In this document: one piece after another, positions 1-17,360 of the stretch | Layout of the letters: each line of letters starts with the position of its first letter | How positions within the stretch are numbered: position 1 is the stretch's first letter | Origin: Subsaxibacter sp. CAU 1640 | Lineage (GTDB): Bacteria; Bacteroidota; Bacteroidia; Flavobacteriales; Flavobacteriaceae | Direction: 5' to 3' | NCBI RefSeq assembly: GCF_023156585.1 | Contig: NZ_JALNMI010000003.1 | Coordinates: 1-64,000, forward strand | Length of the DNA stretch: 64,000 bases | Notes under the pieces: generated by a model | The model's input: only the letters and a program-made list of their open reading frames with translations | The model's database searches: none | Told to the model about the DNA's origin: nothing | Made by a program: the position numbers and the translations under genes

Positions 1-1490
1 ACTGTTGCCGCAGTCATCAGTAGCTGTCCATGTTCTGGTAACCGTGTACGAACCTTCACATTCTCCAGGCACCAAGACGTCGTTGTAAGTCAGGGTAACC
101 TCGCTGCATAGGTCGCTCGCTGTCGCCTGTGCAAACTCCGGCTGCGCAGGGCACTCGATCTTGCTCGCCTCTGGAAGCGCATCGATCACAGGCGCTGTGT
201 TGTCCTCGACGTTGATCGTCTGGGACGCTGTCGAGCTGTTGCCGCAGTCATCAGTAGCCGTCCATGTTCTGGTCACGCTGTACTCGCCGTCGCACTCGCC
301 TGGAGTCATAACGTCGTTGTACGTAAGGGTTGGTCTACTATCACAAGCATCTGTCGCAGTTGGAGTAGCGAATTCAGGCTGCGATGGGCACTCTATCGTG
401 GAGACCTCTGGTAATTGAGAAATTACCGGAGCTGTATTATCTTCTACATGTATTGTTTGTGAAGAAGTAGAAATATTACCACATTCATCTCTAGCTGTCC
501 ATGTTCTGGTTATTGAATAACTGCCTTCACAATCTCCAGGAGTTCTTACATCTCTATATGTTAGATTCACTTTTGGGTCACAAGCATCTGATGCTGTAGA
601 ATTTGCGAATTGAGGAGTGGCAGGACATTGAATGGTTGTCTCTCCAGGTAATTGAGAAATAACTGGAGGTGTAACATCTTGAACATGTATGGTTTGAGAA
701 GCAGTCGAAGAATTTCCGCATTCATCTGTTGCTGTCCATGTTCTCGTAACAGAATATCTGCCCGCACATTTAGTTGGGTTTGTGATATCTCTGTATGTTA
801 GATTTACTTTCGGATCACAGTTATCTGTTGCGACTGCTTGTGTAAATTGTGGAGTCGCAGGACAATCGATAGTTGTCACTTCTGGTAATTGAGAAATTAT
901 AGGAGCAGTAACGTCTTGTACATTAATTGTTTGAGATGCCGTTGAGCTATTTCCACAGTCATCAGTAGCTGTCCAAGTCCTAGTGACTGAATAATTGCCT
1001 GAACAATTACCTACGGTTGTTACATCTCTATAAGTCAACCTTACATTACTATCGCATGTATCAGTTGCAGTAGCTTGAGCAAATTGTGGGGTTGCTGGAC
1101 AATCTATAGTAGTTATACCTGGTAACTGAGCAATTACCGGAGCAGTATTGTCCTCGACCTCGATCACCTGTGAAGCGGTGGAACTGTTGCCACAGTCATC
1201 CGTCGCTGTCCATGTTCTGGTGACTGTATAGGAACCTTCGCATTCTCCAGGGGTCATAACATCTTCAAAAGTAAGCGTTACTTCTTGATCACATGCGTCA
1301 GTCGCAACTGCTTGAGCAAATTGCGGTTGAGCAGGACATTCAATTTTACTTGCTTCAGGAAGATCTGCGAATACTGGAGCGGTGTAATCCTCTACATAAA
1401 TCATTTGAGTTGCAGTAGAACTATTACCACAATTATCAGTTGCAGTCCATGTTCTAGTTCTTATATATGTAGTTCCACATTCCAAAGGTG
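1..1490 (-). repeat. About seven tandem ~237-bp coding repeats
   Basis: The segment encoding RTWTATD(D/N/E)CGN recurs at about 1-40, 235-270, 475-510, 714-750, 950-985, 1185-1220 and 1424-1455. Unit length is nearly constant while DNA identity between units varies strongly. The units at 1 to about 330 and the segment 1141-1262 are GC-rich with C/G-ending codons; the units between are AT-rich. Confidence 0.85.
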
Positions 1491-2022
1491 AGTCAGAGTC
1501 AACATAAGTCAATGTCACTTCTCCTCCACAATTATCTGAAGCTGTAGCTTGTGCAAATTCTGGAGAACTTGGACATTCTATTTTGGATGCTTCAGGAAGT
1601 GGGTCAATAACAGGAGGCGTTCTATCACCACCATAATAAATAAGTTTAAATTCATCTTCAAAGTTAAGACATTTAATCTCATAAGAATATTCTACAGTCC
1701 AATCGCAATTATCACCAGTGATATATGGTGTTTTAACGACTGAAATGGCAGAACCTGCACATTGATCAGCATAAGCCGCCTGTACGGCAGCAATAGACAG
1801 ACCTTGTGGTAGATCATCAATACATCGATTAAAGAATTCTGATCTTTGCGATGATTGTCCAAGCATTGAGCCTATACTAAACAACAAAAGCATGACAAGT
1901 AACGAACCTCGTATGCTTTTAATTTGTTTTGCGATAAGATCAATGCTACAACACGGTAAATTAGTGGTGGGCTGCCATAATTTGGCCCGCCCTCCACTAC
2001 GGGTAAAATTGCTCATAAACAT
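1..2022 (-). CDS. Giant repeat-containing surface protein (5' part, cut by window edge)
   Basis: The frame is open from ATG 2022 (a second ATG at 2016) to base 1, 674 codons, with the C-terminus outside the window. An N-terminal extension of about 38 residues (MSNFTRSGGRAKLWQ...) precedes a hydrophobic segment at about residues 39-53 ending SMLGQ, which I read as a late signal peptide. From about residue 140 there are seven tandem units of about 79 residues (about 237 bp). Each carries the core RTWTATDDCGNSS, a following TAPVI..LPE..IECP segment and about four conserved Cys. These look like HYR/Ig-like adhesion modules; proteins of this type in Flavobacteria often end in a T9SS or gliding-associated domain, which cannot be seen here. 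Some repeats are much more GC-rich than others. Surface location is inferred. Confidence 0.85.
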   Translation of the reverse strand, partial: MFMSNFTRSGGRAKLWQPTTNLPCCSIDLIAKQIKSIRGSLLVMLLLFSIGSMLGQSSQRSEFFNRCIDDLPQGLSIAAVQAAYADQCAGSAISVVKTPYITGDNCDWTVEYSYEIKCLNFEDEFKLIYYGGDRTPPVIDPLPEASKIECPSSPEFAQATASDNCGGEVTLTYVDSDSPLECGTTYIRTRTWTATDNCGNSSTATQMIYVEDYTAPVFADLPEASKIECPAQPQFAQAVATDACDQEVTLTFEDVMTPGECEGSYTVTRTWTATDDCGNSSTASQVIEVEDNTAPVIAQLPGITTIDCPATPQFAQATATDTCDSNVRLTYRDVTTVGNCSGNYSVTRTWTATDDCGNSSTASQTINVQDVTAPIISQLPEVTTIDCPATPQFTQAVATDNCDPKVNLTYRDITNPTKCAGRYSVTRTWTATDECGNSSTASQTIHVQDVTPPVISQLPGETTIQCPATPQFANSTASDACDPKVNLTYRDVRTPGDCEGSYSITRTWTARDECGNISTSSQTIHVEDNTAPVISQLPEVSTIECPSQPEFATPTATDACDSRPTLTYNDVMTPGECDGEYSVTRTWTATDDCGNSSTASQTINVEDNTAPVIDALPEASKIECPAQPEFAQATASDLCSEVTLTYNDVLVPGECEGSYTVTRTWTATDDCGNS

Positions 2023-2383
2023 AACATTTTGGTTTTAAAATTATTAACATCCTAAAAGACAAATTAATTTGCCCTCGTAACCATAAGTTATAGGTTTATA
2101 TGTGTAGGCTTGGGACCTCGAATGCTTTAACAACTTCAATAGAAACTATTGAATGAAAACATTCTTCTGAATATCACTATTCAAAAAAATAACGTGCTAA
2201 TAATCAATTGTTTTCGCTATTAAACAATTTCCGGTAAGACAGTATAAAAACAATTCTATACTTAGATAAATGAAAATCAATACAATCCATCTATCTAGTT
2301 CAAAAATAGAGTATAATAGATTGAACACCAAAAAAAAATTACGTTTTTTTTAACATTATCCACTTTAACTTTTTTTTTTGTAT
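2023..2383. other. 361-bp AT-rich intergenic region
   Basis: This is the gap between hutH and the repeat protein gene, both on the minus strand. I see no convincing ORF. It contains the candidate promoter at 2301-2332, a 6-bp inverted repeat GTTCAA/TTGAAC around it, and long A and T runs (2329-2349, 2370-2379) just after hutH that may aid termination. The inferred 5' untranslated region of the repeat gene is about 270 bases, long for this genome. Confidence 0.6.
2301..2332 (-). promoter_or_regulatory. Candidate Bacteroidota promoter for the repeat protein gene
   Basis: On the minus strand, TTTG (2329-2332) is followed after 20 bp by TATTTTTG (2301-2308), an exact fit to the Bacteroidota -33 TTTG / -7 TAnnTTTG pattern. 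The start codon is about 280 bp downstream. Confidence 0.45.
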
Positions 2384-3895
2384 TTAGTCGAACAACAGGT
2401 CATTCTCGATGCAAAAAACGTCGATGAACTGCAGTGTTGTGATTATGGAATCATGTAACACAACGTCTTGTTTTATGAAGTGGACATCTAGAAGATACAT
2501 TTTTAAGAATGATTCAATAAAAGGGGAAGATTTTAACGGTTTTCTAAAATGAATTGCTTGTGAGGCATTTAACAATTCTATAGCCAAAATACGTTCTACA
2601 TTATTTATCAAAGTATAGGCTTGTGTAGCAGCATTGGCTCCCATACTTACGTGGTCTTCCTGACCATTTGAAGATACAATAGAATCAACACTTGCAGGTG
2701 TTGCCAATTGTTTATTGGCGCTTACAATACTTGCCGCAGTATATTGAGGAATCATAAAGCCTGAATTGAGACCTGGATTATCCACTAAAAATGTTGGCAA
2801 ACCTCTTAATCCTGAAACCAATTGAAAAATTCTTCTTTCAGAAATATTTCCAAGTTCAGCCATTGCTATTTTAAGAAAATCCAATGCCAATGCTAACGGT
2901 TGTCCGTGAAAATTTCCACCAGAAATGATTTTATCGTCTCCTATAAATATGTTCGGATTATCTGTCACAGAATTTATTTCGGTCATAAACACCTTTAAAA
3001 CATACTCCAAAGTATCTTTTGTGGCACCGTGAACCTGTGGCATACATCTGAACGAATATGGGTCTTGAACGTGCGCTTTTTCTTGGGTGATCAGCTCGCT
3101 TCCATCCAAAAATTCCCTAACTCTTTCTGCTGTTTTAAGCTGACCTTTGTGAGGTCTTACCAAATGTACCAATTCATCAAAAGGTTCAATTCGACCATCA
3201 AAAGCATCCAAAGAAATACTGCCTATCAAATCAGCAAGATAAGAAAGCTTATACGATTTCAAAATCAAATGAACCCCATAAGCGCTCATAAATTGTGTAC
3301 CATTGAGCAATGCCAAACCTTCTTTTGACTGTAATATCATTGGTTCCCAGCCAAACTTTTTCAAAATGACTTCTGCTTCAACTACTTTGCCTTCAAACTC
3401 AACCTCACCTTTACCTATGAGCGGCAACGACAAATGTGCCAAAGGTGCCAAATCTCCAGAAGCTCCCAAAGAACCTTGAGTATAAACAACCGGAAAAATA
3501 TCATTATTATAAAAATCCACCAATCGCTGCACAGTATCCAGTTGAACACCACTGTGACCATAACTCAAAGATTGTACTTTTAGCAAGAGCATCAACTTCA
3601 CGATTTCGTTTGGAACTCTTTCTCCTATGCCACAGGCGTGAGACATCACCAAATTTTCTTGCAATTCGGTCAGTTTATCTCTTGAAATCTTGACATTATA
3701 AAGGGAACCGAAACCAGTATTGATGCCATAAATAGGATCATCTTGGGCCTGCATTCTCTCATTGAGATAAACTCTACATTTTTTAATTTTTTCTATGGCA
3801 GATGCAGATAATTCAATTTTTTGCTGCTGAAAGATAATATCGCCAATTGTAGAAATTTCAAGATGTTCAGACGATATTTGATGTATAGTTGGCAT
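2384..3895 (-). CDS. hutH: Histidine ammonia-lyase
   Basis: The enzyme removes ammonia from L-histidine to give trans-urocanate, the first step of histidine degradation. At 503 residues it has normal family length. The MIO-forming Ala-Ser-Gly triad is in GSLGASGDLAPLAH (ASG about 145-147), the YGINTGFG motif with the active-site Tyr is at about 56-63, and SHACGIG is at 85-91. The GQEDHVSMG segment near residue 410 carries the Glu typical of histidine rather than phenylalanine or tyrosine lyases, which decides the substrate call. No other hut gene is in the window, so the rest of the pathway must lie elsewhere or be missing. ATG 3895 is the natural start. Confidence 0.9.
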   Translation of the reverse strand: MPTIHQISSEHLEISTIGDIIFQQQKIELSASAIEKIKKCRVYLNERMQAQDDPIYGINTGFGSLYNVKISRDKLTELQENLVMSHACGIGERVPNEIVKLMLLLKVQSLSYGHSGVQLDTVQRLVDFYNNDIFPVVYTQGSLGASGDLAPLAHLSLPLIGKGEVEFEGKVVEAEVILKKFGWEPMILQSKEGLALLNGTQFMSAYGVHLILKSYKLSYLADLIGSISLDAFDGRIEPFDELVHLVRPHKGQLKTAERVREFLDGSELITQEKAHVQDPYSFRCMPQVHGATKDTLEYVLKVFMTEINSVTDNPNIFIGDDKIISGGNFHGQPLALALDFLKIAMAELGNISERRIFQLVSGLRGLPTFLVDNPGLNSGFMIPQYTAASIVSANKQLATPASVDSIVSSNGQEDHVSMGANAATQAYTLINNVERILAIELLNASQAIHFRKPLKSSPFIESFLKMYLLDVHFIKQDVVLHDSIITTLQFIDVFCIENDLLFD

Positions 3896-3968
3896 ATTCG
3901 TAATTTATGCAGGCAAAATTCCTAATTACATATTACTTATACAACAAATGTTAATAATAATTCAATTG

Positions 3969-4000
3969 TTGGAAATTGTGGCGTCAAAATGGTACTTTTG
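3969..4000 (+). promoter_or_regulatory. Promoter of the TlpA-like lipoprotein gene
   Basis: TTG (3969-3971) and TACTTTTG (3993-4000) are separated by 21 bp, matching the Bacteroidota -33/-7 pattern. Transcription would start near 4007, about 14 bases before ATG 4021, which also supports that start codon over the upstream ATG at 3976. Confidence 0.6.
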
Positions 4001-4020
4001 AGAAAATCAAAAATATCATT

Positions 4021-5079
4021 ATGAAACAACTACTCTTACTATTTCTTGCTATTGCAATTGTTGGATGCAAAAAAGATGAGGAAAAACCAAAGGATTACGT
4101 AACCTTTTCAGGAAAAATCACTGATAAAAACAGTGACTCCATTATCATTAGAAATCAATTTTACTCAAAAACTATAAAAGTTGATGAGAATGGAGAATTC
4201 AGTGACACCTTAAAGGTCGAAACAGGTGTTTATAATTTATTCGATGGTGCTGAATCCACTAATATTTTTCTTCAAAATGGTTATGATGTCAAAATGACTT
4301 TAGACACTAAAATGTTTGATGAAACAATTGTTTACGAAGGAAATGGTGCCGAAACAAATAATTATCTGGCAAAAAAGTCATTAATGGAAGAAAATCTTTT
4401 CCCACCTAGTCTTTTTGATTTGGAAGAAGATGAATTTAAGACAAAAGTTTCTGAAATTAACAAAGAACGAGCTACTTTTCTTGACAAGTATAAATCAATT
4501 GATTCCACTTTATATGCGCAAGAAAAACAAAGTATAGATGGTTTTGAAACAGAAATCTATAATTTTTATGTGCAAAATAAACAACGTGAGCTAGCAATGG
4601 CAAAGGAGTTTGAAAGCTTCATTGGCCAACCTTCACCAGAGTTTAAAAATTATGAAAATTATGCAGGTGGCACTACATCATTAAAAGACTTAAAAGGAAA
4701 ATATGTGTATGTGGATGTATGGGCTACTTGGTGTGGACCTTGTAAAGCTGAAATACCATATTTGAAAAAAGTTGAAGAGGAATACGAAGGCAAAAATATA
4801 CAGTTTGTTAGTATCTCTGTAGATGATGGTAGAGGATACAAAGATCGTTCTGCGGAAGCCAGTAAAGAAGGCTGGAAGAAAATGATTAAGGAAGAAGAAC
4901 TGGGAGGCATCCAATTGCTCTCTGATAAAGCTTGGAAGTCTGATTTTGTGACTGGTTATAAAATCAATGGAATCCCTCGTTTTATTTTGATTGATCCCAA
5001 AGGAAATGTTGTGAATGCCAATGCACCACGACCTTCAAGTCCAAAACTCATCAAATTGTTTGACGAACAAGGTATTTAA
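4021..5079 (+). CDS. TlpA-like thioredoxin-fold lipoprotein
   Basis: This is a predicted periplasmic, lipid-anchored thiol-disulfide protein of 352 residues. ATG 4021 gives a clean lipoprotein signal (MKQLLLLFLAIAIVGC, Cys16 as lipidated residue); an in-frame ATG at 3976 would bury it and would lie upstream of the promoter -7 box. The N-terminal about 200 residues form a beta-rich domain like those before TlpA domains in Bacteroidota (DUF4369-like). The C-terminal domain has WATWCGPC, with redox cysteines 238 and 241, and a cis-Pro region GIPRFILID. It probably reduces or isomerises envelope disulfides; its partner is unknown. It stands alone between hutH (divergent) and nnrD (convergent). 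Confidence 0.85.
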   Translation: MKQLLLLFLAIAIVGCKKDEEKPKDYVTFSGKITDKNSDSIIIRNQFYSKTIKVDENGEFSDTLKVETGVYNLFDGAESTNIFLQNGYDVKMTLDTKMFDETIVYEGNGAETNNYLAKKSLMEENLFPPSLFDLEEDEFKTKVSEINKERATFLDKYKSIDSTLYAQEKQSIDGFETEIYNFYVQNKQRELAMAKEFESFIGQPSPEFKNYENYAGGTTSLKDLKGKYVYVDVWATWCGPCKAEIPYLKKVEEEYEGKNIQFVSISVDDGRGYKDRSAEASKEGWKKMIKEEELGGIQLLSDKAWKSDFVTGYKINGIPRFILIDPKGNVVNANAPRPSSPKLIKLFDEQGI

Positions 5080-5101
5080 GCTTGTTTATATTATAAAATT
5101 C

Positions 5102-5131
5102 AAAGAGCCACTGATTAGTGGCTCTTTTTTT
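5102..5131. terminator. Bidirectional intrinsic terminator
   Basis: AAAGAGCCACT (5102-5112), loop GATT, AGTGGCTCTTT (5117-5127), followed by a T run on the plus strand and preceded by A residues. It lies between the convergent TlpA-like gene and nnrD and overlaps the nnrD stop codon. Confidence 0.85.
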
Positions 5132-6704
5132 ATCTAGTTCGTTGTCTTGAATTATGTGATTCCTCTTCCTCGGTCTCTTGTGGTGGCATATCAGGTCTAG
5201 CAAACAAATCAATGTAAGCTTTACCTAGATAGTCAATGACATTGCTTGCAATCATACTTTGATAGCCGAATTCTTCCACAGCAATATCTGCTGATTTTCC
5301 GTGAAGATACACTCCAAAAACAGTTGCACTCAATTGGTCATAACCTTGAGCCAGTAATCCAGTAATTATTCCTGTTAGAACATCACCAGTTCCAGCAGTT
5401 GCTAGACCTGGATTGCCTGTGGAATTCACATACAACTTATCCTGATATACCGTGATTGTATTTGAACCTTTTATCACAATAACAAGTTGATGCTCCTTTG
5501 AAAGCTCTTTCACCTTCTTCAATTTATCAAAATCATCTTTCCACTTCCCTATCAAACGTTCCAATTCTTTTGGATGTGGTGTTAGGATAGCGTCTTTCGG
5601 CAAGAGTTTCAATAAGTTTTTGTTTTTTGCCAATAAATTGATTCCATCAGCATCGATCACCAAAGGAGATTTGTTTGCTTTTAAAAATTTTTCAAATGCA
5701 AGTTGCGTGGTTTCTGATGTTCCCAATCCCATTCCAATTCCAATGGATGTTGGTTCAAGATCAAACTTTATTTCTGTAATTAAATTTTCGTCTTTATCCG
5801 TCATAACCATAGCTTCGGGAAATGTTGATTGTAAAATGGTATATCCACATTTTGGAACGTAAGCCGTCACCAATCCGGCTCCGGAAGCCAATGCTGCTTT
5901 GCTTGAAAGAGTTACGGCACCTATTTTTCCGTAACTGCCACCAATAATCAAACTATGCCCAAAATCGCCTTTATGGGAAAATTTCTCTCGAGGTTGGTAT
6001 ACCTGAAGCATTTCATTTTTGCCTATCAATTCTGCTTCCGTTTCAGTCGTGTAGAGATATTCTGGATCTAAACCGATATCCAAAATTTCCCATTGTTGGG
6101 TATATTTTGCCGTATCGGGAAGGAAAAATGCTAATTTGGGCGAAGCAAAACTCAATGTATAGTTAGCCCAAACCACGCCATTTTCGTCTTTTGGCACTTT
6201 GTCTGAATAAAGTCCAGATGGCATATCAATGGCTAATGTAAAGGCTTTTGATTTCCTAAAATGCTGAAATAATCCTTTTACCCAATCATCCGCAGGTCTA
6301 TTTAAACCGATACCGAACACGGCATCGACAATAATATCATCTGCACCAATGTCTGGATAATCTTCTGCACAATTGAGCATTTCGGGCCATTTTTTGGTGG
6401 TTTCCTTGATTCTATCATAATTAATCAAAAAATCCTTACTGCGTTTGTCGTTGCAATTCACCACATAGGTTTTTACATTGTACCCGTGAGTAATCAGATG
6501 TCTTGCCACCACCAAGCCATCGCCACCATTATTACCGATACCACAAAAAACGTGAATGGGCACTTGCGCTCCTTGCATCCGAACGTGAAGCCAATTAAAA
6601 ATCTGGATGCCTGCACGCTCCATCAATTCTGTGGAAGAAATGTTCTGTTTTTTGGCGGTAGTTTGGTCGCCTATATATATCTGTTCTTTTGAAAATATCT
6701 TCAT
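5130..6704 (-). CDS. nnrD: Bifunctional NAD(P)H-hydrate epimerase / ADP-dependent dehydratase
   Basis: This is a metabolite-repair enzyme that epimerises and dehydrates damaged NAD(P)HX back to NAD(P)H. Its 524 residues hold both parts. The N-terminal YjeF-type epimerase domain (about 1-215) has the glycine-rich GNNGGDGLVVARHL at about 58-70. The C-terminal ribokinase-like dehydratase domain (about 230-510) has GGSYGKIGA and the phosphate-binding AGTGDVLTGIITG near 437-450. The acidic tail (TEEEE) is unremarkable. It is divergent from the threonine operon and is probably a single-gene unit. Confidence 0.92.
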   Translation of the reverse strand: MKIFSKEQIYIGDQTTAKKQNISSTELMERAGIQIFNWLHVRMQGAQVPIHVFCGIGNNGGDGLVVARHLITHGYNVKTYVVNCNDKRSKDFLINYDRIKETTKKWPEMLNCAEDYPDIGADDIIVDAVFGIGLNRPADDWVKGLFQHFRKSKAFTLAIDMPSGLYSDKVPKDENGVVWANYTLSFASPKLAFFLPDTAKYTQQWEILDIGLDPEYLYTTETEAELIGKNEMLQVYQPREKFSHKGDFGHSLIIGGSYGKIGAVTLSSKAALASGAGLVTAYVPKCGYTILQSTFPEAMVMTDKDENLITEIKFDLEPTSIGIGMGLGTSETTQLAFEKFLKANKSPLVIDADGINLLAKNKNLLKLLPKDAILTPHPKELERLIGKWKDDFDKLKKVKELSKEHQLVIVIKGSNTITVYQDKLYVNSTGNPGLATAGTGDVLTGIITGLLAQGYDQLSATVFGVYLHGKSADIAVEEFGYQSMIASNVIDYLGKAYIDLFARPDMPPQETEEEESHNSRQRTR

Positions 6705-6780
6705 CTAAAGTATTTTAACGAATAAATAAGTGTTTCACTCCAAAATAGAGTGTTTAATTTTTTTATTACCATAAAAATAA

Positions 6781-6788
6781 TACATTTG
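6781..6788 (+). promoter_or_regulatory. -7 promoter box of the threonine operon
   Basis: TACATTTG matches TAnnTTTG exactly. A start near 6795 would place the leader-peptide ATG (6807) about 12 bases into the transcript. I do not see a clear TTTG -33 box at the expected distance. Confidence 0.5.
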
Positions 6789-6806
6789 AAAGGTATAGCA
6801 TAACAA

Positions 6807-6905
6807 ATGTCAAACGTTAATCACAGTTCAACCATAACTATTTCTTCCACATCCTTGGAAGGCTTTACTACTGTGACCACAACTACCACAACCCTTTGGG
6901 GTTAA
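6807..6905 (+). CDS. Threonine-rich leader peptide of the thr operon
   Basis: This is a 32-codon ORF from ATG 6807 to TAA 6903-6905, ending 69 bp before thrA. Eleven of its 32 residues are Thr, packed near the end as FTTVTTTTTTLWG, and two Ile codons are also present. A leader with runs of Thr codons ahead of thrABC is the hallmark of ribosome-mediated attenuation by charged tRNA-Thr, as in the enterobacterial thr leader. The stop codon overlaps a small hairpin, AACCC-TTTG-GGGTT (6890-6903). No U-tract follows it, so the coupling to thrA expression may not be classical termination. Translation of this ORF is inferred. Confidence 0.8.
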   Translation: MSNVNHSSTITISSTSLEGFTTVTTTTTTLWG

Positions 6906-6974
6906 TGCTATCATACTCTCGTCTATTCCATTATTTTCATTTTATTTGTATCAATCATTTCATAACCAATCCTT

Positions 6975-9419
6975 ATGTTAGTATTAAAATTTGGAGGCAC
7001 TTCGGTCGGTTCGGCAGAAAACATCAATAATGTCATTTCAATTTTAGAGGAAAAATCAAAGCAGTCCAAACTCGTCTGTGTGGTTTCTGCAGTGGGCGGC
7101 ATCACTGACAAATTGCTAAAGGCTGGACTTTTGGCGCAACAGAAAAACGAAAGCTATCTTTCAATTTTCAAGGAAGTAAAGACTATTCATTTCAACATCA
7201 TTGATGAGTTGATTCCGAATAAAAGTGATTCAATTTCTGAACATTTAGAGTCAAAATTCAATGGACTGAAAAGTTTATTGGATGGTATTTATTTGATCAA
7301 TGAATTATCTCCAAAGACGACTGATAAATTAGTCAGTTATGGCGAATTGCTTTCCTCCTATTTAATCACCAGGACGATGCAAAGCCGCAAGATGGATGTC
7401 GAGTTGAAGAATAGTCAAGATTTGATTGTGACCAATTCAAATTTCACTAAAGCTGAAGTCAATTACAATCTTACGAATGAACGCATTGGTTCATATTTCA
7501 AAAATGTTAGACAACATATTACCATTTTACCTGGTTTTATTTCTAAATCCGCTCAAGGCGAAGTTACAACGCTTGGTCGTGGTGGTTCGGATTTTACGGC
7601 AGCAATTGTTGCTGCGTCTCTGAATGTTAAGCAATTGGAAATTTGGACAGATGTGAGCGGAATGTACACAGCCAACCCGAAAATGGTTAAACAGGCCTAT
7701 CCTATCGAAAATCTATCGTATCAGGAAGCGATGGAACTATCGCATTTCGGTGCCAAGGTTTTGTATCCACCAACGGTTCAACCTGTTTTGGATTTGAACA
7801 TTCCAATCCATATCAAAAACACGTTAGATCCTGATGCTGTAGGAACCATTATCTCTCAAAAAGGCAACGGTAAAACTTCGCCGGCAAAAGGCATCAGTAA
7901 TATCAATTACATTGCTCTGCTTACCTTGCAAGGCAGCGGAATGGTGGGAATTCCTGGCTTTTCAAAACGATTGTTTGAAACGCTTGCAAACGAAAAAATC
8001 AATATCATTCTGATTACCCAATCTTCTTCAGAGCATTCTATTTGTTTCGGAATTGATGATAAGGATGCTGAACGTGCCAAAACAGCTATTGATGCTACTT
8101 TTGAAAATGAAATTTCTCTTCACAAGATTGATCCTATTCTGGTTGAAAACGAATTGGCTATCATTGCATTGGTGGGCGACCATATGAAAAATCATCAAGG
8201 CATCAGTGGTCGAATGTTCAGTTCCTTGGGAAAAAACAATATCAATATCAGAGCGATTGCTCAAGGTGCTTCAGAACGAAATATTTCTGCAGTCATCAAA
8301 GAAACCGATGTCAAAAAAGCACTTAATACTCTACACGAAGCTTTTTTTGAAGGCAACATCAAACAACTGAATGTGTTTATTACTGGTGTTGGGAATGTTG
8401 GAGAGAAATTGGTAGAGCAAATCAAACAGCAGCGAAAGTTCTTGAAAGACCATTTGAAACTAAACTTACGAGTGATCGGATTGTCAAATTCTCGAACAAT
8501 GATTTTCGAGGAAAACGGATTGTCTTTAAAAGATTGGAAAGAACAATTATCTGCTGGAAACGAGGCGTCTTTGCAAAGATTTATGGATGAAATAAAACGT
8601 CTCAACCTTCGCAATAGTATTTTTGTGGATATCACTGCCAATGAAGAGGTTTCGAAATTCTATGCAGACTATCTGAAACAGAATATTGCGGTAGTGGCTT
8701 GCAATAAAATAGCTTGTTCAAGTTCTTATGACAATTATCAAGAACTGAAATATCTATCTAAAAAATATAGTGCGCCATTTTTATTTGAAACCAATGTTGG
8801 CGCAGGATTGCCAATCATCGACACCCTGAATCACTTGATTGCTTCAGGTGATACCATCACATCAATTCAGGCCGTTTTATCGGGAAGTTTGAATTTTGTT
8901 TTCAATAATTTTAATGACAGCACCAAGTTTTATGATGTGGTAAAACAGGCACAGACAGAAGGTTATACCGAACCTGATCCGAGAATTGATTTAAGTGGCG
9001 TGGATGTAGCTCGTAAAATTTTGATTTTGGCTCGTGAAAGTGGCACCAAACTGAATCTAGAAGATATTGAAAATGAATCATTTTTGACCAAAGCAAATCT
9101 TGAAAGCAATTCAGTTGATGATTTTTATAAAACTTTGACTGCTGATGAGCAACATTTTCAAGCGTTGTATGCATCAGCCAAATCCAAAAACTGCCAATTG
9201 AAATATGTAGCAGAGTTTTCCGATGGAAAAGCAAAAGTTGGCTTGCGAGAGATTCCGCAAGGTCATCCGTTTTATAATCTGAAAGGAAAAGATAATATTG
9301 TGATGTTCTACACGCATCGTTATCCAGAACAACCGATGATTATCAAAGGTGCTGGTGCTGGTGCTGATGTGACTGCTTCAGGTTTGTTTGCCGATATTAT
9401 CAGAGCAGGCAATAGGTAA
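6975..9419 (+). CDS. thrA: Bifunctional aspartate kinase / homoserine dehydrogenase
   Basis: It catalyses the first and third steps from aspartate to threonine and methionine. The 814-residue fusion has an amino-acid kinase domain starting KFGGTSVGS (5-13), tandem ACT regulatory regions at about 310-460, and a dehydrogenase domain beginning at the NAD-binding FITGVGNVGEKL (about 467-478) and ending GAGAGADVTASGLFAD. The ACT regions are probably the site of feedback inhibition by threonine. ATG 6975 fits the family start. It is the first structural gene of the thr operon, 33 bp ahead of thrB if ATG 9452+6 is used, and is probably controlled by the upstream leader peptide. Confidence 0.96.
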   Translation: MLVLKFGGTSVGSAENINNVISILEEKSKQSKLVCVVSAVGGITDKLLKAGLLAQQKNESYLSIFKEVKTIHFNIIDELIPNKSDSISEHLESKFNGLKSLLDGIYLINELSPKTTDKLVSYGELLSSYLITRTMQSRKMDVELKNSQDLIVTNSNFTKAEVNYNLTNERIGSYFKNVRQHITILPGFISKSAQGEVTTLGRGGSDFTAAIVAASLNVKQLEIWTDVSGMYTANPKMVKQAYPIENLSYQEAMELSHFGAKVLYPPTVQPVLDLNIPIHIKNTLDPDAVGTIISQKGNGKTSPAKGISNINYIALLTLQGSGMVGIPGFSKRLFETLANEKINIILITQSSSEHSICFGIDDKDAERAKTAIDATFENEISLHKIDPILVENELAIIALVGDHMKNHQGISGRMFSSLGKNNINIRAIAQGASERNISAVIKETDVKKALNTLHEAFFEGNIKQLNVFITGVGNVGEKLVEQIKQQRKFLKDHLKLNLRVIGLSNSRTMIFEENGLSLKDWKEQLSAGNEASLQRFMDEIKRLNLRNSIFVDITANEEVSKFYADYLKQNIAVVACNKIACSSSYDNYQELKYLSKKYSAPFLFETNVGAGLPIIDTLNHLIASGDTITSIQAVLSGSLNFVFNNFNDSTKFYDVVKQAQTEGYTEPDPRIDLSGVDVARKILILARESGTKLNLEDIENESFLTKANLESNSVDDFYKTLTADEQHFQALYASAKSKNCQLKYVAEFSDGKAKVGLREIPQGHPFYNLKGKDNIVMFYTHRYPEQPMIIKGAGAGADVTASGLFADIIRAGNR

Positions 9420-9457
9420 TGGTTTATATAAATTAAAAAATTAGTGTATTCGTGGTT

Positions 9458-10381
9458 ATGATTGATGAAATAAAGATTTTTTCTCCGGCAACGGTTGCCA
9501 ACGTCTCCTGTGGATTTGATGTCCTTGGGTTTTGTTTGGATACCGTTGGTGATGAAATGATTGTTAGAAAAACTTCTGAAAAAGGAATTCGCATCATAAA
9601 AATAGAAGGTTATGATTTGCCTTTGGAAACCCAAAAAAATGTAGCAGGTGTTGCGGCTTTGGCTTTATACGATGATGCTAAACCTGACTATGGTTTTGAA
9701 ATTGAAATCTATAAAAACATCAAACCAGGAAGTGGTATTGGTAGCAGTTCGGCCAGTGCATCAGGAAGTATTTTTGCCATTAATGAATTGCTTGGAAAAC
9801 CTTATAATCAAACCCAATTGACCAACTTTGCAATGAAAGGCGAAGCATTGGCTAGTGGTTCGGAGCACGCTGATAATATTGCCCCTGGAATTTTCGGTGG
9901 ATTTACCTTGGTTAAAAGTACTTCACCTTTAGAAGTGTTGCAATTACCAACTCCTTATGATTTATATGCGACCATCATCCATCCCCAAATTGAAGTTAAG
10001 ACTTCTGAAGCGAGAGCCATTCTGCCAAAAGAAATCCCGATGAAAAATGCGATAACACAATGGGCAAATGTTGGAAGCCTAGTACACGCATTACATACAA
10101 ACGATTATGAATTGATAAGCAAATCGCTCAACGATGTGGTTGTGGAGCCGTATAGAAGCCAACTGATTCCTCATTTCAAGGATGTGAAAAATGAAACCAT
10201 CAATGCAGGTGCTTTAGGTTGTGGTATTTCTGGTTCTGGACCTTCGATATTTGCTTTATCCAAAGGAATCGAAAATGCCAAGAATGTTGAAAACGCGATG
10301 AAAATGGTTTATTCTAAAACACCTATTGACTTCAACACATACGTTTCGAAAATTAATACTGATGGAGTTAAAATTTTATGA
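9458..10381 (+). CDS. thrB: Homoserine kinase
   Basis: It phosphorylates L-homoserine with ATP, the fourth step of threonine synthesis. This GHMP kinase has 307 residues counted from ATG 9458; an in-frame GTG lies two codons earlier. The N-terminal IKIFSPATVANVSCGFDVLG and the ATP-binding PGSGIGSSSASASG loop (about 90-103) are typical, and the C-terminal GCGISGSGPSIFAL motif is present. It is co-transcribed with thrA. Its stop codon lies directly against a run of four 7-bp repeats. Confidence 0.95.
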   Translation: MIDEIKIFSPATVANVSCGFDVLGFCLDTVGDEMIVRKTSEKGIRIIKIEGYDLPLETQKNVAGVAALALYDDAKPDYGFEIEIYKNIKPGSGIGSSSASASGSIFAINELLGKPYNQTQLTNFAMKGEALASGSEHADNIAPGIFGGFTLVKSTSPLEVLQLPTPYDLYATIIHPQIEVKTSEARAILPKEIPMKNAITQWANVGSLVHALHTNDYELISKSLNDVVVEPYRSQLIPHFKDVKNETINAGALGCGISGSGPSIFALSKGIENAKNVENAMKMVYSKTPIDFNTYVSKINTDGVKIL

Positions 10382-10382
10382 T

Positions 10383-10410
10383 AGATGACAGATGACAGAT
10401 GACAGATGAC
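10383..10410. repeat. Four perfect 7-bp tandem repeats (AGATGAC)n
   Basis: Four exact copies of AGATGAC fill 10383-10410, starting one base after the thrB stop codon and ending ahead of the four-helix-bundle gene. A heptamer array of this kind can change length by slippage. It contains no coding sequence. Confidence 0.9.
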
Positions 10411-10435
10411 CAATTAAATCATATAAAACTTATTA

Positions 10436-10798
10436 ATGGAACTAAATAAATTCAAGTTTGAAAAATTAATAATTTGGCAAAAAGCAATGGATTTTGGAGA
10501 TGACATTGATATACTTGCTGATAGTTTTCCAGATAAGGAAAAGTTTAATTTGGCATCTCAAATAAGACGTGCTGCAGACTCCGTCGCATTAAACATTTCG
10601 GAAGGTTCAATTGGTCAGAGCAATCTTGAACAGAAGAAATTTATAGGATATTCCATTAGGTCATTAGCAGAAGTGGTTACGTGTTTATTTAAAGGTAAAA
10701 GAAGAAAATATTTAACCGAGCCACAATTCGAAGATTTTTATAATAGGTCATACGAACTTATGAATATGATGATAGCTTTTAAAAACAAACTAAACTAA
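10436..10798 (+). CDS. Four helix bundle protein (23S rRNA intervening-sequence type)
   Basis: This is a 120-residue all-helical protein. The segment IWQKAMDFGDDIDIL, the motif IRRAADSVALNISEGS (about 43-58) and the later SIRSLAEVVTCL are characteristic of the S23/IVP four helix bundle family, which is often annotated after proteins encoded in rRNA intervening sequences. The biochemical role is unknown. It sits inside the thr operon between thrB and thrC in the same direction. The short sequence GATGACCA (10405-10412) recurs inverted as TGGTCATC (10801-10808) just past its stop, so it looks like a discrete insertion. ATG 10436 is the only sensible start. Confidence 0.85.
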   Translation: MELNKFKFEKLIIWQKAMDFGDDIDILADSFPDKEKFNLASQIRRAADSVALNISEGSIGQSNLEQKKFIGYSIRSLAEVVTCLFKGKRRKYLTEPQFEDFYNRSYELMNMMIAFKNKLN

Positions 10799-10834
10799 AA
10801 TGGTCATCGGTCTTCGGTCACCTATCCTTAAATT

Positions 10835-12133
10835 ATGAACTACTACTCACTAAACAAAAAAGCTCCAACCACCAGCTTCAAAGATGCAGTAATCAAAGGA
10901 CTCGCGCCTGACAAAGGGCTCTATTTTCCTGAATCGATTACACTGCTTCCAAAGTCATTCTTTGAAGAAATAGATGATTTTAGCTATGAAGAAATTGCTT
11001 TTGAAGCTATAAAACAGTTTGTTGCACCTGATATTCCTGAAGCGGAATTAAAACAAATTATATCCGAAACCTTATCATTTGATTTTCCTGTTGTGGAAAT
11101 CAATAAGAAGATTTCAACCTTGGAACTTTTCCACGGACCAACTATGGCTTTTAAAGATGTTGGAGCTCGGTTTATGGCGAGGTGTTTAGGGTATTTCAAC
11201 AAAGACAATTCAAGGGAAGTAACTGTGTTAGTTGCAACATCTGGCGATACAGGAGGCGCAGTTGCCAACGGATTTTTGGGTGTTGAAGGCGTCAAAGTCG
11301 TGATTTTATATCCTAGCGGAAAAGTGAGCGATATCCAAGAAAAACAACTAACGACACTCAAAAAAAATATCACAGCTTTGGAAGTCGATGGTGTTTTTGA
11401 CGATTGTCAAGATATGGTGAAGCAAGCCTTTCTCGATGAAAGCATCATCAACAAAATGCAATTGACATCTGCCAATTCCATAAACGTGGCTCGTTGGCTA
11501 CCACAAATGTTCTATTATTTCTTCGCTTATAAACAATTGCACAATCAGCATAAAGACATTGTGTTTTCAGTTCCAAGTGGCAATTTTGGCAATATTTGTG
11601 CTGGAATGATGGCGCAGCAATTGGGTTTACCTATACATCATTTCATTGCTTCGAATAATGAAAATGATGTGGTTACAGAGTATCTTAAAACTAAACTCTA
11701 TCAACCAAAACCATCAGTGGCAACCATTTCAAACGCGATGGACGTTGGAAATCCCAGTAATTTTGTAAGGATTCAAGAGATTTTTAAAAATAATTTTGAG
11801 GCTTTGAAATCGAATCTTACTTCATACAGCTATTCCGATGAGAAGACTCGAGAGGCACTCAAGGAACTTTACAATGATTATAATTATGTGGCAGATCCTC
11901 ACGGAGCTGTTGGCTATTTGGGATGCAAAGATTATTTGAAAATGAATCCAAATGCGCATTGTGTCTTTTTGGAAACAGCACACGCAACCAAATTTTTGGA
12001 TGTAATAGAAGATGTGATTAGGGAAAATATTGAATTGCCAGAACAAATTGCTGCTGTGATGGACAAAAAGAAAAAATCAATTAAAATTGGTGCTTACGAA
12101 GAATTGAAAAACTATCTTTTAAGCAGCATCTAA
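10835..12133 (+). CDS. thrC: Threonine synthase
   Basis: It converts O-phospho-L-homoserine to L-threonine using pyridoxal phosphate. The 432-residue protein starts MNYYSLNKKAPTTSFKDAV; the PLP-binding lysine is Lys107 in HGPTMAFKDVGARF, followed by the phosphate-binding SGDTGGAVANGF (about 134-145). It completes the thrA-B-C pathway. Its stop codon is one base before the start of the following GNAT gene, so the transcript probably continues. The inserted four-helix-bundle gene separates it from thrB by about 450 bp. Confidence 0.96.
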   Translation: MNYYSLNKKAPTTSFKDAVIKGLAPDKGLYFPESITLLPKSFFEEIDDFSYEEIAFEAIKQFVAPDIPEAELKQIISETLSFDFPVVEINKKISTLELFHGPTMAFKDVGARFMARCLGYFNKDNSREVTVLVATSGDTGGAVANGFLGVEGVKVVILYPSGKVSDIQEKQLTTLKKNITALEVDGVFDDCQDMVKQAFLDESIINKMQLTSANSINVARWLPQMFYYFFAYKQLHNQHKDIVFSVPSGNFGNICAGMMAQQLGLPIHHFIASNNENDVVTEYLKTKLYQPKPSVATISNAMDVGNPSNFVRIQEIFKNNFEALKSNLTSYSYSDEKTREALKELYNDYNYVADPHGAVGYLGCKDYLKMNPNAHCVFLETAHATKFLDVIEDVIRENIELPEQIAAVMDKKKKSIKIGAYEELKNYLLSSI

Positions 12134-12134
12134 A

Positions 12135-12650
12135 ATGACAACCATCACACGTGCTACAGTCGAAGACGCTGCCTTGTTGGTAGACATCGGAAGGGCATCT
12201 TTTATAGATTCTCACGGAATGAGCGCTCCCAAAAAAGATATTGATGCCTACTTGGAAGAAAAATTCAATGAAGACACGTTTTCAGAAGAGTTGTTAGATG
12301 CAACAAACCATTTCTATATTCTTTATTACAATGAAAATCCTGTAGGATATTCAAAAATTATTTTCAACTTCTCGCATCAAAATGTACCATTTCAGAATGC
12401 TTCAAAATTAGAGCGTCTGTATCTTCTGAAAGAATATCATCATTTAAAATTAGGTCTGGAATTGATGACTTTAAATATCAAAAAATCCATGGAACAATCG
12501 CAAGCGGGAATCTGGCTATTTGTTTGGACTGGCAACACAAAAGCGTTCAATTTTTACAGTAAATTAGGTTTCGAGATTGTTGGCAGTTATGAGTTCAAAA
12601 TTTCCGAAACGCATTACAACCCAAATCATCAAATGTTATTGACTTATTAA
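12135..12650 (+). CDS. GNAT family N-acetyltransferase
   Basis: This is a predicted acetyl-CoA-dependent acetyltransferase of 171 residues; the substrate cannot be told. The fold is read from TTITRATVEDAALLVDIGR at the N-terminus, LERLYLLKEYHHLKLGLELM (a weak version of the acetyl-CoA loop) near 91-110, and the closing NTKAFNFYSKLGFEIVGSYEF, the standard GNAT end. The start is one base after the thrC stop, so it is likely a passenger of the thr operon. Confidence 0.85.
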   Translation: MTTITRATVEDAALLVDIGRASFIDSHGMSAPKKDIDAYLEEKFNEDTFSEELLDATNHFYILYYNENPVGYSKIIFNFSHQNVPFQNASKLERLYLLKEYHHLKLGLELMTLNIKKSMEQSQAGIWLFVWTGNTKAFNFYSKLGFEIVGSYEFKISETHYNPNHQMLLTY

Positions 12651-12660
12651 AATTAAAACT

Positions 12661-12900
12661 ATGGACAGTATTTCGGATTGGGTAGGATTTATAGGTGTTT
12701 CTCAAATCCTGTTGGCTTATTTTTTAAATGTAGCCGGAAAAATTTCAAACAACAGTCTTTCCTTTATTTTTTTGAACGTGATTGGTGCAGCAATGGCGTG
12801 TATCGCCTCCATAATGATTATATATTGGCCTTTCATCATTCTTGAAGGCATCTGGACACTTGTATCGCTCTATTCTTTAAAAAACTATTTCTCCAAATGA
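12661..12900 (+). CDS. Small three-helix membrane protein (CBU_0592-like)
   Basis: The protein has 79 residues with about three hydrophobic helices (about 8-25, 32-52, 55-75) and a conserved-looking WVGFIGVSQILLAYFLN start. It resembles the CBU_0592 family of small inner-membrane proteins, whose function is unknown. It lies 10 bp after the GNAT gene and overlaps the convergent SRPBCC gene by 16 bp at its 3' end. It ends the presumed thr transcript; I see no intrinsic terminator there. Confidence 0.75.
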   Translation: MDSISDWVGFIGVSQILLAYFLNVAGKISNNSLSFIFLNVIGAAMACIASIMIIYWPFIILEGIWTLVSLYSLKNYFSK

Positions 12901-13313
12901 TTCTTTAAAGACTTATGAATGATATGGTTCCACCCTTCCACAAAATTATGTACAGCCAAATCTGGATTATCTTTCGGAAAAGTATCCAATCCTTTATGAG
13001 TTAATTTTACTGTCGTTTGATCAACCTTATCTGTAAGTTCGAAAATCACTTCGGAATTGCCTGAATAGCCTTTATACTTCCAACAATAGCTTAACCTTTC
13101 GTTTGGCTTTGCTGATGTGACTTCACACAGATGTACATATTGCTCTCCATCTTCTACACTACCAATAAAATCAAACTTAAACCCAACCTCTGGCTTGAAT
13201 TCTTTAAGGTCAAAATACCATTGTTTCATTTCATCTTTGTCAGTCAAAGCTTTCCAAACCTGTGAAATTTGAGCATCGAAAGTTTCCTCTATTACAACAT
13301 CATTTGTTTCCAT
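12885..13313 (-). CDS. SRPBCC (AHSA1-like) protein
   Basis: This is a 142-residue START/Bet v1-fold protein of the activator-of-Hsp90-ATPase-homologue-1 type. It has VVIEETFDAQISQVWKALTD at the start, the MKQWYFDLKEFKPEVGFKFDF segment, and a closing amphipathic helix (NFVEGWNHIIHKSLKNHL). Such proteins bind small hydrophobic ligands; no specific role can be assigned. It is 14 bp downstream of the aminopeptidase gene on the same strand and probably shares its transcript. Confidence 0.85.
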   Translation of the reverse strand: METNDVVIEETFDAQISQVWKALTDKDEMKQWYFDLKEFKPEVGFKFDFIGSVEDGEQYVHLCEVTSAKPNERLSYCWKYKGYSGNSEVIFELTDKVDQTTVKLTHKGLDTFPKDNPDLAVHNFVEGWNHIIHKSLKNHLEK

Positions 13314-13327
13314 AATTGTTACTGATT

Positions 13328-14962
13328 TTAATCTAGTTTCGGCAAGACAAAATCATCCAAGGCACTTTTCTCTTTCATCAAAGCCTCTATTTCACTGGAT
13401 TTTCTTGGTGCTTCTGCGGATAAATTGACAGGCCCATTTTCCGTAATTAAAATATCATCTTCGATTCTAACGGCAATTCCCCACCATTTTTTATCGCAAT
13501 CACTGCCTTCTGGAATGTAAATTCCAGGTTCTACAGTAATGACCATATTGGCTTCAAAATTGCCTCTCAAACTCGGATCGTGCACATCCAAACCGATATG
13601 ATGCGAAGTTCCGTGAGGAAAATATTGTCTGGCATCAGCTTCGGTTTTGGCAATACCCAATTTTACCAATCCTGCATTTACAATTTTTCTAGCTGCATCA
13701 TCAGGAGACCTCAAATTGGCACCAATGACGGTAGCTTTGATTCCAGCTTCTTGGGCCTCATATACCAAATCATAAATAGCCTTTTGTTCTGGCGAGAATT
13801 TGCCATTGGCAGGAATAGTTCTTGTCACATCTGCCGTATAGCCGTGATATTCTGCGCCTAAATCCATCAAAACCAAATCATTTTCAAGCTTCATCTTGGT
13901 ATTTTCAATGTAATGAAGAACACAACCATTATTTCCAGCACCTACGATACTAGGATAACCTTCATATTCACTTCCATACTTTTTATAGACATATTCGTGA
14001 ACGCCTTGTACTTCGGTTTCAGACATCCCAGGATGCATGGCTTTCATAATTTCACGCTGTCCCATAGCCGAGATACGAACTGCTTTTTTCAACAATACCA
14101 TTTCTTCTGGAGTTTTCACTTGTCGCAATCCAGCCATAATGGTTGAAAGTGTTCTGGTATCTAGGTTGCTTTTTGGTGCTTCGGCTTCAATTTTTATGAC
14201 ACGCTGCTTTAACTCCATACGGATTTTTTCGTCTTTGGCATTAACATAATCGTTAATGACCTTATCGTCTTTCAGTTCTGGAGCATACGTCATAGCTTGC
14301 TCAATTCGTTGAACAACATTGGTGTTATTTTCAACATCTGATGTTTTAATCATTTCGTAAACTCTATCCTTCATCGGATTATCTTCAGGCATAGTGTTAT
14401 AACCACTTTGTGCCTTAAACGTTTCTATCAGACTATACAAATCGGCATCGTCCCTTTTGGAATCTCTGTAATCATTTTGAAAATTATTGAACAATACCTT
14501 GTCAAATTTCGCATAATCAATTCCAGAATCCTTGAATACACTTCCATTGAAAGCTGTATCAAAACCTAATTTTTCTTTAGCGCCTTCTACTCCAAGTCGA
14601 ATGCCTGTCCACTGCTCTGCTTGTGGGTTTTTCTCTTGAACATAAATGACTTCATTATACGTTTTCCCTTTGTCATTGTATTGATCAGATGAAAATATAA
14701 CCAACACCGCATTTGGTTCTTTATAACCTGTCAGATAATAAAAATTTGGATCTTGATGATACACATAATCCACGTCATTGCTGCGATTTCGCTCTGGATT
14801 CGCAAAAAACACGGCAACACTATTGGTTGGCATTTGACTACGGAACGCTTCTCTCCTTTCTTTATGGAATTTTGAACTTAAATAATCTTCTGGAAGTCCT
14901 TTTTGAGCGTGAGACAACGTTGTTAAAAAAAGCGTACAACAGAGTGTGAAAATGGTTTTCAT
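13328..14962 (-). CDS. Secreted Xaa-Pro aminopeptidase (M24B)
   Basis: This is a metallopeptidase that removes N-terminal residues before proline. It has 544 residues with a signal peptide (MKTIFTLCCTLFLTTLSHAQ), so it acts in the periplasm or outside. The N-terminal aminopeptidase P domain contains NRSNDVDYVYHQDPNFYYLTG. The C-terminal pita-bread domain has the metal ligands: Asp in LVLMDLGAEYHGYTADVTR, His in PHGTSHHIGLDVHD, Glu in VITVEPGIYIPEGS and Glu in IAVRIEDDILIT. It is first in a two-gene unit with the SRPBCC protein. Confidence 0.93.
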   Translation of the reverse strand: MKTIFTLCCTLFLTTLSHAQKGLPEDYLSSKFHKERREAFRSQMPTNSVAVFFANPERNRSNDVDYVYHQDPNFYYLTGYKEPNAVLVIFSSDQYNDKGKTYNEVIYVQEKNPQAEQWTGIRLGVEGAKEKLGFDTAFNGSVFKDSGIDYAKFDKVLFNNFQNDYRDSKRDDADLYSLIETFKAQSGYNTMPEDNPMKDRVYEMIKTSDVENNTNVVQRIEQAMTYAPELKDDKVINDYVNAKDEKIRMELKQRVIKIEAEAPKSNLDTRTLSTIMAGLRQVKTPEEMVLLKKAVRISAMGQREIMKAMHPGMSETEVQGVHEYVYKKYGSEYEGYPSIVGAGNNGCVLHYIENTKMKLENDLVLMDLGAEYHGYTADVTRTIPANGKFSPEQKAIYDLVYEAQEAGIKATVIGANLRSPDDAARKIVNAGLVKLGIAKTEADARQYFPHGTSHHIGLDVHDPSLRGNFEANMVITVEPGIYIPEGSDCDKKWWGIAVRIEDDILITENGPVNLSAEAPRKSSEIEALMKEKSALDDFVLPKLD

Positions 14963-15079
14963 CTTGAAATTTTTATTGAAGCCGAAATTTAATAATATTA
15001 TCCTCCTTCGAATTAGAAAACCTTAAAATTAACATATTTTTAATCGATTCTAATCCTTAATAAAACAGATAATTTTCAA

Positions 15080-15087
15080 TATTTTTG
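15080..15087 (+). promoter_or_regulatory. -7 promoter box before the 50-aa ORF and gcvT
   Basis: TATTTTTG fits TAnnTTTG. A start near 15094 would make the small ORF at 15098 nearly leaderless. No clear -33 element is seen. Confidence 0.4.
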
Positions 15088-15097
15088 TGCAACTTTT

Positions 15098-15250
15098 ATG
15101 AAAGAAGTTTTAGTTGCAATAATAGAATTCATTGGATTCAACTTTGAATTTCTATCCAATAGAAAGTCTTTAAGGAGAACTTTGCTAATGAGTTTTTTCT
15201 TATTGATTCTTGTTTTTGCAATTGTATATTATCTGACTAAAGATTTTTAG
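15098..15250 (+). CDS. Small single-helix membrane protein, 50 aa
   Basis: The ORF runs from ATG 15098 to TAG 15250. An amphipathic N-terminal half (MKEVLVAIIEFIGFNFEFLS), a basic stretch (NRKSLRR) and one membrane helix (about 31-46, SFFLLILVFAIVYYL) make a sensible small membrane protein, N-in by the positive-inside rule. A good -7 box sits just upstream and gcvT follows in the same direction. I do not recognise a family; the call rests on composition and position. Confidence 0.6.
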   Translation: MKEVLVAIIEFIGFNFEFLSNRKSLRRTLLMSFFLLILVFAIVYYLTKDF

Positions 15251-15256
15251 AATAGA

Positions 15257-15274
15257 TTTCCGCCTTTGCGGAAA
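15257..15274. repeat. Mini-palindrome copy 1 (hairpin upstream of gcvT)
   Basis: TTTCCGC-CTTT-GCGGAAA is a perfect 7-bp stem with a 4-base loop, preceded by AGA. It lies 18 bp before the gcvT start codon. Related hairpins occur at 52743-52760 and 55428-55445. Confidence 0.8.
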
Positions 15275-15291
15275 TGAAAATAAATCAATTT

Positions 15292-16374: not shown

Positions 16375-16407
16375 ATGGATTAACTTCTCTACCGGAAACG
16401 ACTTTTG

Positions 16408-17238: not shown

Positions 17239-17246
17239 AAAGTTAT

Positions 17247-17360
17247 GAGTGCCTAAAGTACTTGGAGTGCCTAAAGTTCTAAAGGTTTATGTCAATAAAT
17301 AGATTTAAATTTAAGTTCTCAAAACTTTAAGTACTTATTACTTTCAAACTTTAGGCACTT
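17247..17360. repeat. Direct and inverted repeats of GAGTGCCTAAAGT
   Basis: GAGTGCCTAAAGTACTT (17247-17263) is followed by GAGTGCCTAAAGTTCT (17265-17280). The reverse complement ACTTTAGGCACTT appears at 17348-17360, and CTTTAAGTACTT lies between. The whole gap between the SDR gene and the dehydratase gene could fold as one imperfect hairpin. Confidence 0.8.

Follow-up and report, generated by a model that had tools for sequence, protein, structure and literature searches.

A threonine-rich leader without an evident terminator ahead of thrABC in a flavobacterial genome and its relatives

The thrABC genes in the DNA analysed here, a stretch of 64,000 nucleotides that we call the window, are preceded by a short open reading frame (ORF) dense in threonine codons, which raises the question of how such a leader could act on the genes behind it when no terminator is evident between the two. 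Leader-peptide attenuators are usually recognised by their terminator, and in the classical ribosome-mediated attenuators, the trp, his and thr leaders of enterobacteria, the terminator is the defining part. The locus contains the following features.

6781-6788, + strand: -7 promoter box TACATTTG of the TAnnTTTG type, read from the sequence
6807-6905, + strand: threonine leader ORF, 32 codons, 11 of them Thr, peptide MSNVNHSSTITISSTSLEGFTTVTTTTTTLWG, read from the sequence; Thr-dense leaders also occur in relatives
6876-6893, + strand: run of six Thr codons, the last of which (ACC, 6891-6893) lies inside the 5' arm of hairpin P2
6890-6903, + strand: hairpin P2, AACCC(TTTG)GGGTT, 5 bp, -5.4 kcal/mol for 6888-6905
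6906-6974, + strand: C-rich, G-poor, unstructured tract, 16 C and 3 G of 69, without a terminator
6975-9419, + strand: thrA, bifunctional aspartokinase-homoserine dehydrogenase, with amino acid kinase, ACT and homoserine dehydrogenase domains
9452-10381, + strand: thrB-like GHMP kinase gene, with GHMP kinase domains
10436-10798: 23S rRNA intervening-sequence protein gene (PF05635, E 1.8e-29), between the thrB-like gene and thrC
10835-12133, + strand: thrC, threonine synthase, with Thr_synth_N and PALP domains

The initial annotation had described a 32-codon ORF with 11 Thr codons, six of them consecutive before LWG-stop, ahead of thrA and behind a good -7 box, and the sequence confirms this description. 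The ORF starts 18 nt past the TACATTTG box, its C-terminal part runs through the six consecutive Thr codons into L-W-G and the stop codon TAA (6903-6905), and a gap of 69 nt separates it from thrA. Six ACN triplets in a row occur a single time in the 64 kb (both strands, all frames), and we regard the reading of this ORF as a threonine leader as near certain. The 5-bp hairpin said to overlap the leader stop codon is likewise present, at 6890-6903, where it has one base in common with that codon. Relatives show the hairpin again, together with the leader and in the same order, which is more than chance would give. TAnnTTTG is the -7 box consensus in PMC9723704. Judged by its place, the thrB-like gene probably encodes homoserine kinase. 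As a side observation, nothing in the window's genome matches PF00920, the family of dihydroxyacid dehydratases (ilvD), and branched-chain synthesis may be missing.

No terminator was found when 6906-6974 was scanned for a hairpin followed by a U-run, relaxed limits included. A second scan, of 6700-7100, returned a sole site upstream of the promoter and none between leader and thrA; this site, at 6736-6752, is a terminator-like hairpin with a T-rich tail that lies between a divergent YjeF-like gene and the thr promoter. The region 6906-6994 folds no better than shuffled sequences (z +0.67). The two scans and the shuffle folding, with the his and trp leaders as control, bear out the earlier remark that neither a terminator nor a U-run follows the leader. 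In the same genome, hisG is preceded by the leader MKFIQNHHHHFHTCTQAS with a terminator of -13.6 kcal/mol and trpE by the leader MNTILNHTWWWNSRNANFVN with one of -15.6 kcal/mol (contigs C4 and C5; loci L117 and L119). Among relatives, a strong terminator follows 20 of 20 recognisable His leaders, and the main scanner found a strong terminator in 28 of 30 his upstreams, for which hisG starts were guessed, L146 gave no call and L169 (-9.8) fell just under the -10 limit. Since the same genome's his and trp leaders carry strong terminators, as do the His leaders of relatives, the absence of one at thr is meaningful: classical attenuators are in use in this organism, and thr is the exception. In support of this, no terminator stronger than -7.1 kcal/mol was found in 107 thrA upstreams with P2 by our leader finder and terminator scan, custom scripts with arbitrary cut-offs. 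Weak calls were made in five of the 107 (L009 and L012, -7.0 each; L053, -7.1; L032 and L124, -6.9 each). The missing terminator is well supported by these comparisons and, as the stop signal that such switches normally carry is lacking, the sensing of threonine probably follows a route not yet described.

The element is widely kept within Flavobacteriaceae. The family set comprised the window and the best 80 of 437 thrA relatives found, and these 81 loci, like all those compared here, are mutually related rather than independent. ACCC-N(2-5)-GGG stands ahead of thrA in 70 of the 81 upstreams, and a Thr-dense leader ending at P2 was called by script in 60 of those 70 (60 of 81 overall), the P2 loci without a Thr-dense leader called beside P2 being L009, L010, L012, L032, L044, L053, L054, L057, L063 and L081. 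The alignment in relatives that had been suggested as a check has thus been carried out, and both the Thr run and the pairing are conserved. In alignment A1, whose 67 rows were picked for having P2, invariant columns fall in the -7 box (the A and three T), in P2 and in thrA. The genus g2 of the same family, which we take to be Flavobacterium, has the P2 kind without a terminator, TACCCCTTAGGGGTA.

Throughout, P2 is of the type ACCC-loop-GGGT; its 5' arm opens within the final Thr codon, and the stop codon is either enclosed by the hairpin or next to it. Its loop ranges from 2 to 7 bases, and its distance to thrA is 81-112 nt save in the insertion loci L041 (165), L023 (192) and L032 (291). The invariance of its bases arises partly by selection, since the pattern demands CCC and GGG and loci were picked for ACCC and GGG; a fixed sequence would also be expected where the arm has to contain a Thr codon. 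Nevertheless, 107 of 107 loci have the U that faces the A of P2, although it was not a selection criterion. The ends of the leader peptides differ among relatives (LWG, PWG, LRG, LLG, RLG, TP-stop, TR-stop) while P2 is constant, and it is therefore the RNA, not the peptide, that is conserved. We conclude that the leader element is real and conserved; we found no name for it in the literature or in Rfam. Rfam includes an enterobacterial threonine leader, and at E-values up to 1 none of the covariance models of Rfam 15 matched the leader (window 1-20000); the leaders of 13 related loci gave no match either.

In addition to the family set we sampled 29 thrA loci from 146 genomes plus 20 stretches, and 22 further loci from 99 genomes, best matches only. 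Two kinds of Thr leader occur among 43 further thrA upstreams of other families (one a duplicate). The P2 kind without terminator is found in families f2 (L132), f4 (L122-L129), f17 (L172, L173) and f34 (L176-L178, L183), where P2 precedes a box like ACATATC; the f4 loci read TACCCCATAACGGGGTA, with the stop codon within the loop. In the second kind P2 is missing and a strong terminator is present (L135, L136, L137, L140, L187, L188 and L193; by eye also L133 and L192). In a scan of 152 upstreams, 94 had a Thr leader with P2 and 13 had a called leader with no adjoining P2. Terminators of -14.5 to -22.5 were found for seven of these 13. The remaining six comprise L057, L081 and L093, where P2 is present and a different ORF was called, L138, probably a chance ORF, and L184 and L190, which have a flipped stem.

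In L184 and L190 (ACGGGGTRACCCG) the pairs of the stem are exchanged, the stem starts in the Thr codon ACG and the stop codon lies in the loop. When 394 genomes were searched with ACNACGGGGTRACCCG, 7 matches came up, against 4 in the reversed control. Two of the matches stand before thrA behind Thr codons, L233 (in the genome of L184) and L234, both of one genus, and keep CATATTCC at a similar distance; the remaining five are not ahead of thrA. Though found in few species, the flipped stem is the best sign in these sequences that P2 may matter as a hairpin.

The same stem bears on the idea that P2 is a DNA operator, its palindrome AACCC-N4-GGGTT binding a dimeric regulator and the Thr run being coincidental. 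P2 is indeed palindromic in DNA and hardly varies. We nevertheless think this reading highly improbable, given that in 94 loci P2 sits where a Thr-rich ORF ends, within or beside the stop codon, that its loop length varies, that L184 and L190 have the entire stem flipped, and that the motif did not turn up at other regulatory sites in the genome. The possibility that P2 is a motif of general use in the window's genome was itself rejected, as its two other matches there both sit inside ORFs.

A box region follows the stop codon.

6908-6923, + strand: post-stop box region CTATCATACTCTCGTC, placed by comparison with relatives, a loose relative of CATAT[CA]

The window's own box, CATACTCTCGTC, only loosely resembles CATAT[CA], the exact form being absent from the window; the exact box occurs in 27 of the 107 P2 loci, 8-13 nt past the G run. 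A search that used no protein information, with the pattern ACCCCN{2,5}GGGGTN{6,12}CATATM, matched in 21 of 26 chosen genomes (22 matches; reversed control 1) and in 33 of 296 genomes of the phylum (35 matches; reversed control 3), the window's own genome giving no match to this strict hairpin-plus-box pattern. At 31 of the 36 matches inspected, the thrA motif KFGG(T/S)S lies within 330 nt, in all cases behind Thr/Ile-rich codons. The matches L216, L222, L223, L224 and L230 are without thrA and were set aside as chance; outside the inspected set there was one match in G358 and one each in G422 and G433. Patterns were used in place of a covariance model because MAFFT misplaced the P2 3' arm at differing loop lengths (alignment A2).

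The best explanation of these findings, to which we give a probability of roughly 0.45, is a threonine-sensing leader-peptide attenuator without an intrinsic terminator that acts via pausing or Rho. A shortage of charged Thr-tRNA would halt ribosomes within the Thr run, whose last codon forms part of the P2 5' arm. Because P2 extends from that codon to the stop codon, which it encloses or adjoins, it should fold only once the leader's end is free of ribosomes; a ribosome that is terminating, or has stalled on the final Thr codons, would cover P2, which would therefore report ribosome position. With ample threonine, the ribosome would finish and depart and P2 would fold close behind RNA polymerase, leaving ribosome-free, C-rich and unstructured RNA ahead of thrA open to Rho and to an early end of transcription. 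A ribosome stalled on the last Thr codons would keep P2 open and trail the polymerase closely, and thrABC would be transcribed. In hairpin-stabilised pauses the hairpin folds in the exit channel of RNA polymerase, and with the box just behind P2, polymerase would stand on the box while P2 folds in that channel. We infer the response to threonine, the pausing at the box and the part played by Rho, the latter two from geometry and composition.

Termination by Rho would suit the tract, which is rich in C, poor in G and unstructured, and the genome has a gene for Rho (RNA-binding domain of Rho, E 2.4e-35, in a 552-aa open frame). Only 0.11% of the 69-nt stretches of the window, both strands, match the tract in having at least 16 C with at most 3 G, and 1.6% have a C minus G as high or higher. 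The combination of C-rich, unstructured downstream RNA and an encoded Rho is why ribosome-controlled pausing with Rho termination is favoured. Against it stand the tract in genus g2, which is not clearly C-rich (L100 has 13 C and 11 G of 99), the exact box in only 27 of 107 loci, and the hairpin P3 described below, which it leaves unexplained. A ribosome stalled at least 4 codons ahead of P2 would leave P2 free, and the sign of the effect is therefore not secured.

The missing terminator could instead point to control of translation, as the initial annotation had considered, with leader or post-stop RNA masking the thrA start until it is freed by leader translation or stalling. In keeping with this, 6902-6914 can pair with the thrA start region, the fold of 6888-6994 reaching -10.6 kcal/mol, about half of it from P2. 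However, native complementarity between the post-stop segment and the thrA start is no higher than that of swapped sequences (six comparisons, z -1.1 to +1.6), 6906-6994 folds like its shuffles (z +0.67), and the distance to thrA ranges from 81 to 291 nt through insertions. These insertions, of about 65-190 nt ahead of thrA, leave the leader and P2 intact and keep P2 and the box together. Complementarity, folding and insertions thus lend control of thrA translation no support, and we think it unlikely. Extra sequence between the leader element and thrA was noted in L023, L032, L041, L095, L099, L102 and L105-L107; the insertion in L032 resembles a dispersed repeat.

Two further hairpins are present in the leader region of relatives, one of which is also found in the window.

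6844-6861, + strand: hairpin P1 (CTTCC..GGAAG) inside the leader ORF, -7.3 kcal/mol for 6838-6866

The other, P3, is found in most relatives and lies about 30-70 nt past the start of P2. In a profile of 77 sequences less than 85% alike, folds beat shuffles at P1 (mean z -1.81), P2 (about -1.3) and P3 (-2.19), and the RNA between P2 and P3 is less structured than shuffles (+0.6). P1 covaries, with both-side changes at 5 of 5 pairs counted and 73% of cells paired, as does P3, at 8 of 8 pairs. With the structure hand-placed on rows of the same alignment in which it was counted, the covariation score of the three helices together is 0.175 against 0.100 for shuffles, of which 0 of 500 reach it, and 0.035-0.095 when partner columns are slid. 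A cross-species swap test over 636 pairs of segments also made P3 (t -4.9) and P1 (t to -3.3) stand out, and gave a signal at -80 x -25/-30 (t -3.5, -3.1) that is unexplained. RNAalifold on A1 found P2 alone.

P3 suggests a second alternative, namely classical attenuation via a weak or unusual intrinsic terminator, formed by P3 or by an extended fold of P2, whose tail departs from a pure U run. P3 covaries, and a laxer scan found a weak P3 (-3.0 to -4.8 kcal/mol) with a T-rich tail in 9 of 92 loci (L028, L036, L038, L039, L042, L046, L056, L061 and L064); moreover, the weak calls in L009, L012 and L053 (-7.0 to -7.1) come from an extended fold containing P2, with a T-rich tail behind it. Yet the tailed P3 stems are feeble beside the -13.6 and -15.6 kcal/mol of the organism's own his and trp terminators, P3 is lacking in the window, L005 and L006, and no clear antiterminator pairing was found, all of which makes this reading quite unlikely. 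The antiterminator candidate, P2 GGGG with the post-stop box, was rejected, its overall pairing being no better than that of dinucleotide shuffles (mean paired 0.78 vs 0.74); 7 of 92 loci are at rank 3 or better of 60, and the pairing is convincing in the single loci L005, L045, L067 and L074.

P3 is small in L004, and L009 and L012 fold to nothing there. Its absence from the window, L005 and L006, together with the 11 of 81 loci that lack P2, several of them without any leader, would also fit a relic: a leader that in the window's lineage no longer has its output part (P3), with thrABC expressed constitutively. This we consider very unlikely, because the Thr run, P1, P2 and the position of the stop codon are intact in the window, L005 and L006.

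A helix between the leader 5'UTR and the post-stop segment is suggested by the window fold, in which 6796-6801 is complementary to 6905-6910 around the stop codon. Native sequences pair better there than all 200 swaps (68 sequences); in a stricter set of 38, 3-5 of 100 swaps match the native pairs, a level also seen in two unrelated segments (2-3 of 100). These comparisons are no more than suggestive of such a helix.

The terminator-less attenuator favoured here shares with classical attenuators, both the enterobacterial ones and the organism's own his and trp leaders, a promoter, a short leader ORF with a run of end-product codons and then the biosynthetic operon. It differs from them in that the defining terminator is absent from the thr leader of the window and no clear antiterminator pairing was found. 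Rho-dependent leader switches are known from tnaC, mgtL and corL, which sense signals other than Thr. As in these, leader translation would decide the access of Rho to ribosome-free RNA, a role for Rho that is putative here, whereas the element of the window has a Thr run and a hairpin at the stop codon. We tentatively propose, with rather less than even confidence, that these leaders form an old terminator-less class of threonine attenuator in Bacteroidota, a separate class of ribosome-mediated attenuation in which the stop-codon hairpin and CATAT-type box act as a ribosome-cleared pause that decides a Rho stop, and which alternates within the phylum with the classical terminator type.

Our literature search found no paper on such a thr leader in Bacteroidota. 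Strong clues for leader-peptide attenuation upstream of amino-acid operons have been presented for Flavobacterium psychrophilum (PMC9723704), the main text of which has 0 occurrences of threonine or thrA and, in the parts compared, no terminator-less class. Leader-like short ORFs are mentioned for B. thetaiotaomicron in PMC7366714, and a comparative attenuation study from 2010 (Lopatovskaya and colleagues), cited in PMC4833913, may cover Bacteroidota. The Corynebacterium ilvB-II leader, as described in PMC10272879, likewise places a uORF rich in end-product residues before a biosynthetic operon; it concerns branched-chain amino acids in another phylum, and is likened here by its uORF, not by structure. 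What the thr locus adds is that terminator attenuators serve his and trp in this organism but not thr, for which it has a different device, kept across distant families of the phylum. As both types of thr leader, terminated and terminator-less, are found next to each other among related genomes, and as the element is compact and clearly delimited, the coupling of translation, RNA polymerase pausing and Rho in Bacteroidota is now open to direct tests.

Nature also offers loci in which the element is reduced or gone. Several of the 11 family loci without P2 have lost the whole leader and kept the promoter; in L055, L059, L078, L079 and L082, which amount to natural leader deletions, thrA lies shortly downstream of a promoter of this type. 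In L113-L116, from four reduced genomes (f15, about 600 kb each), thrA lacks both the Thr leader and P2. In the thrA upstream of L130, where no Thr leader or P2 5' arm was seen, GGGGTT and ACATATCA remain, possibly as a decaying element.
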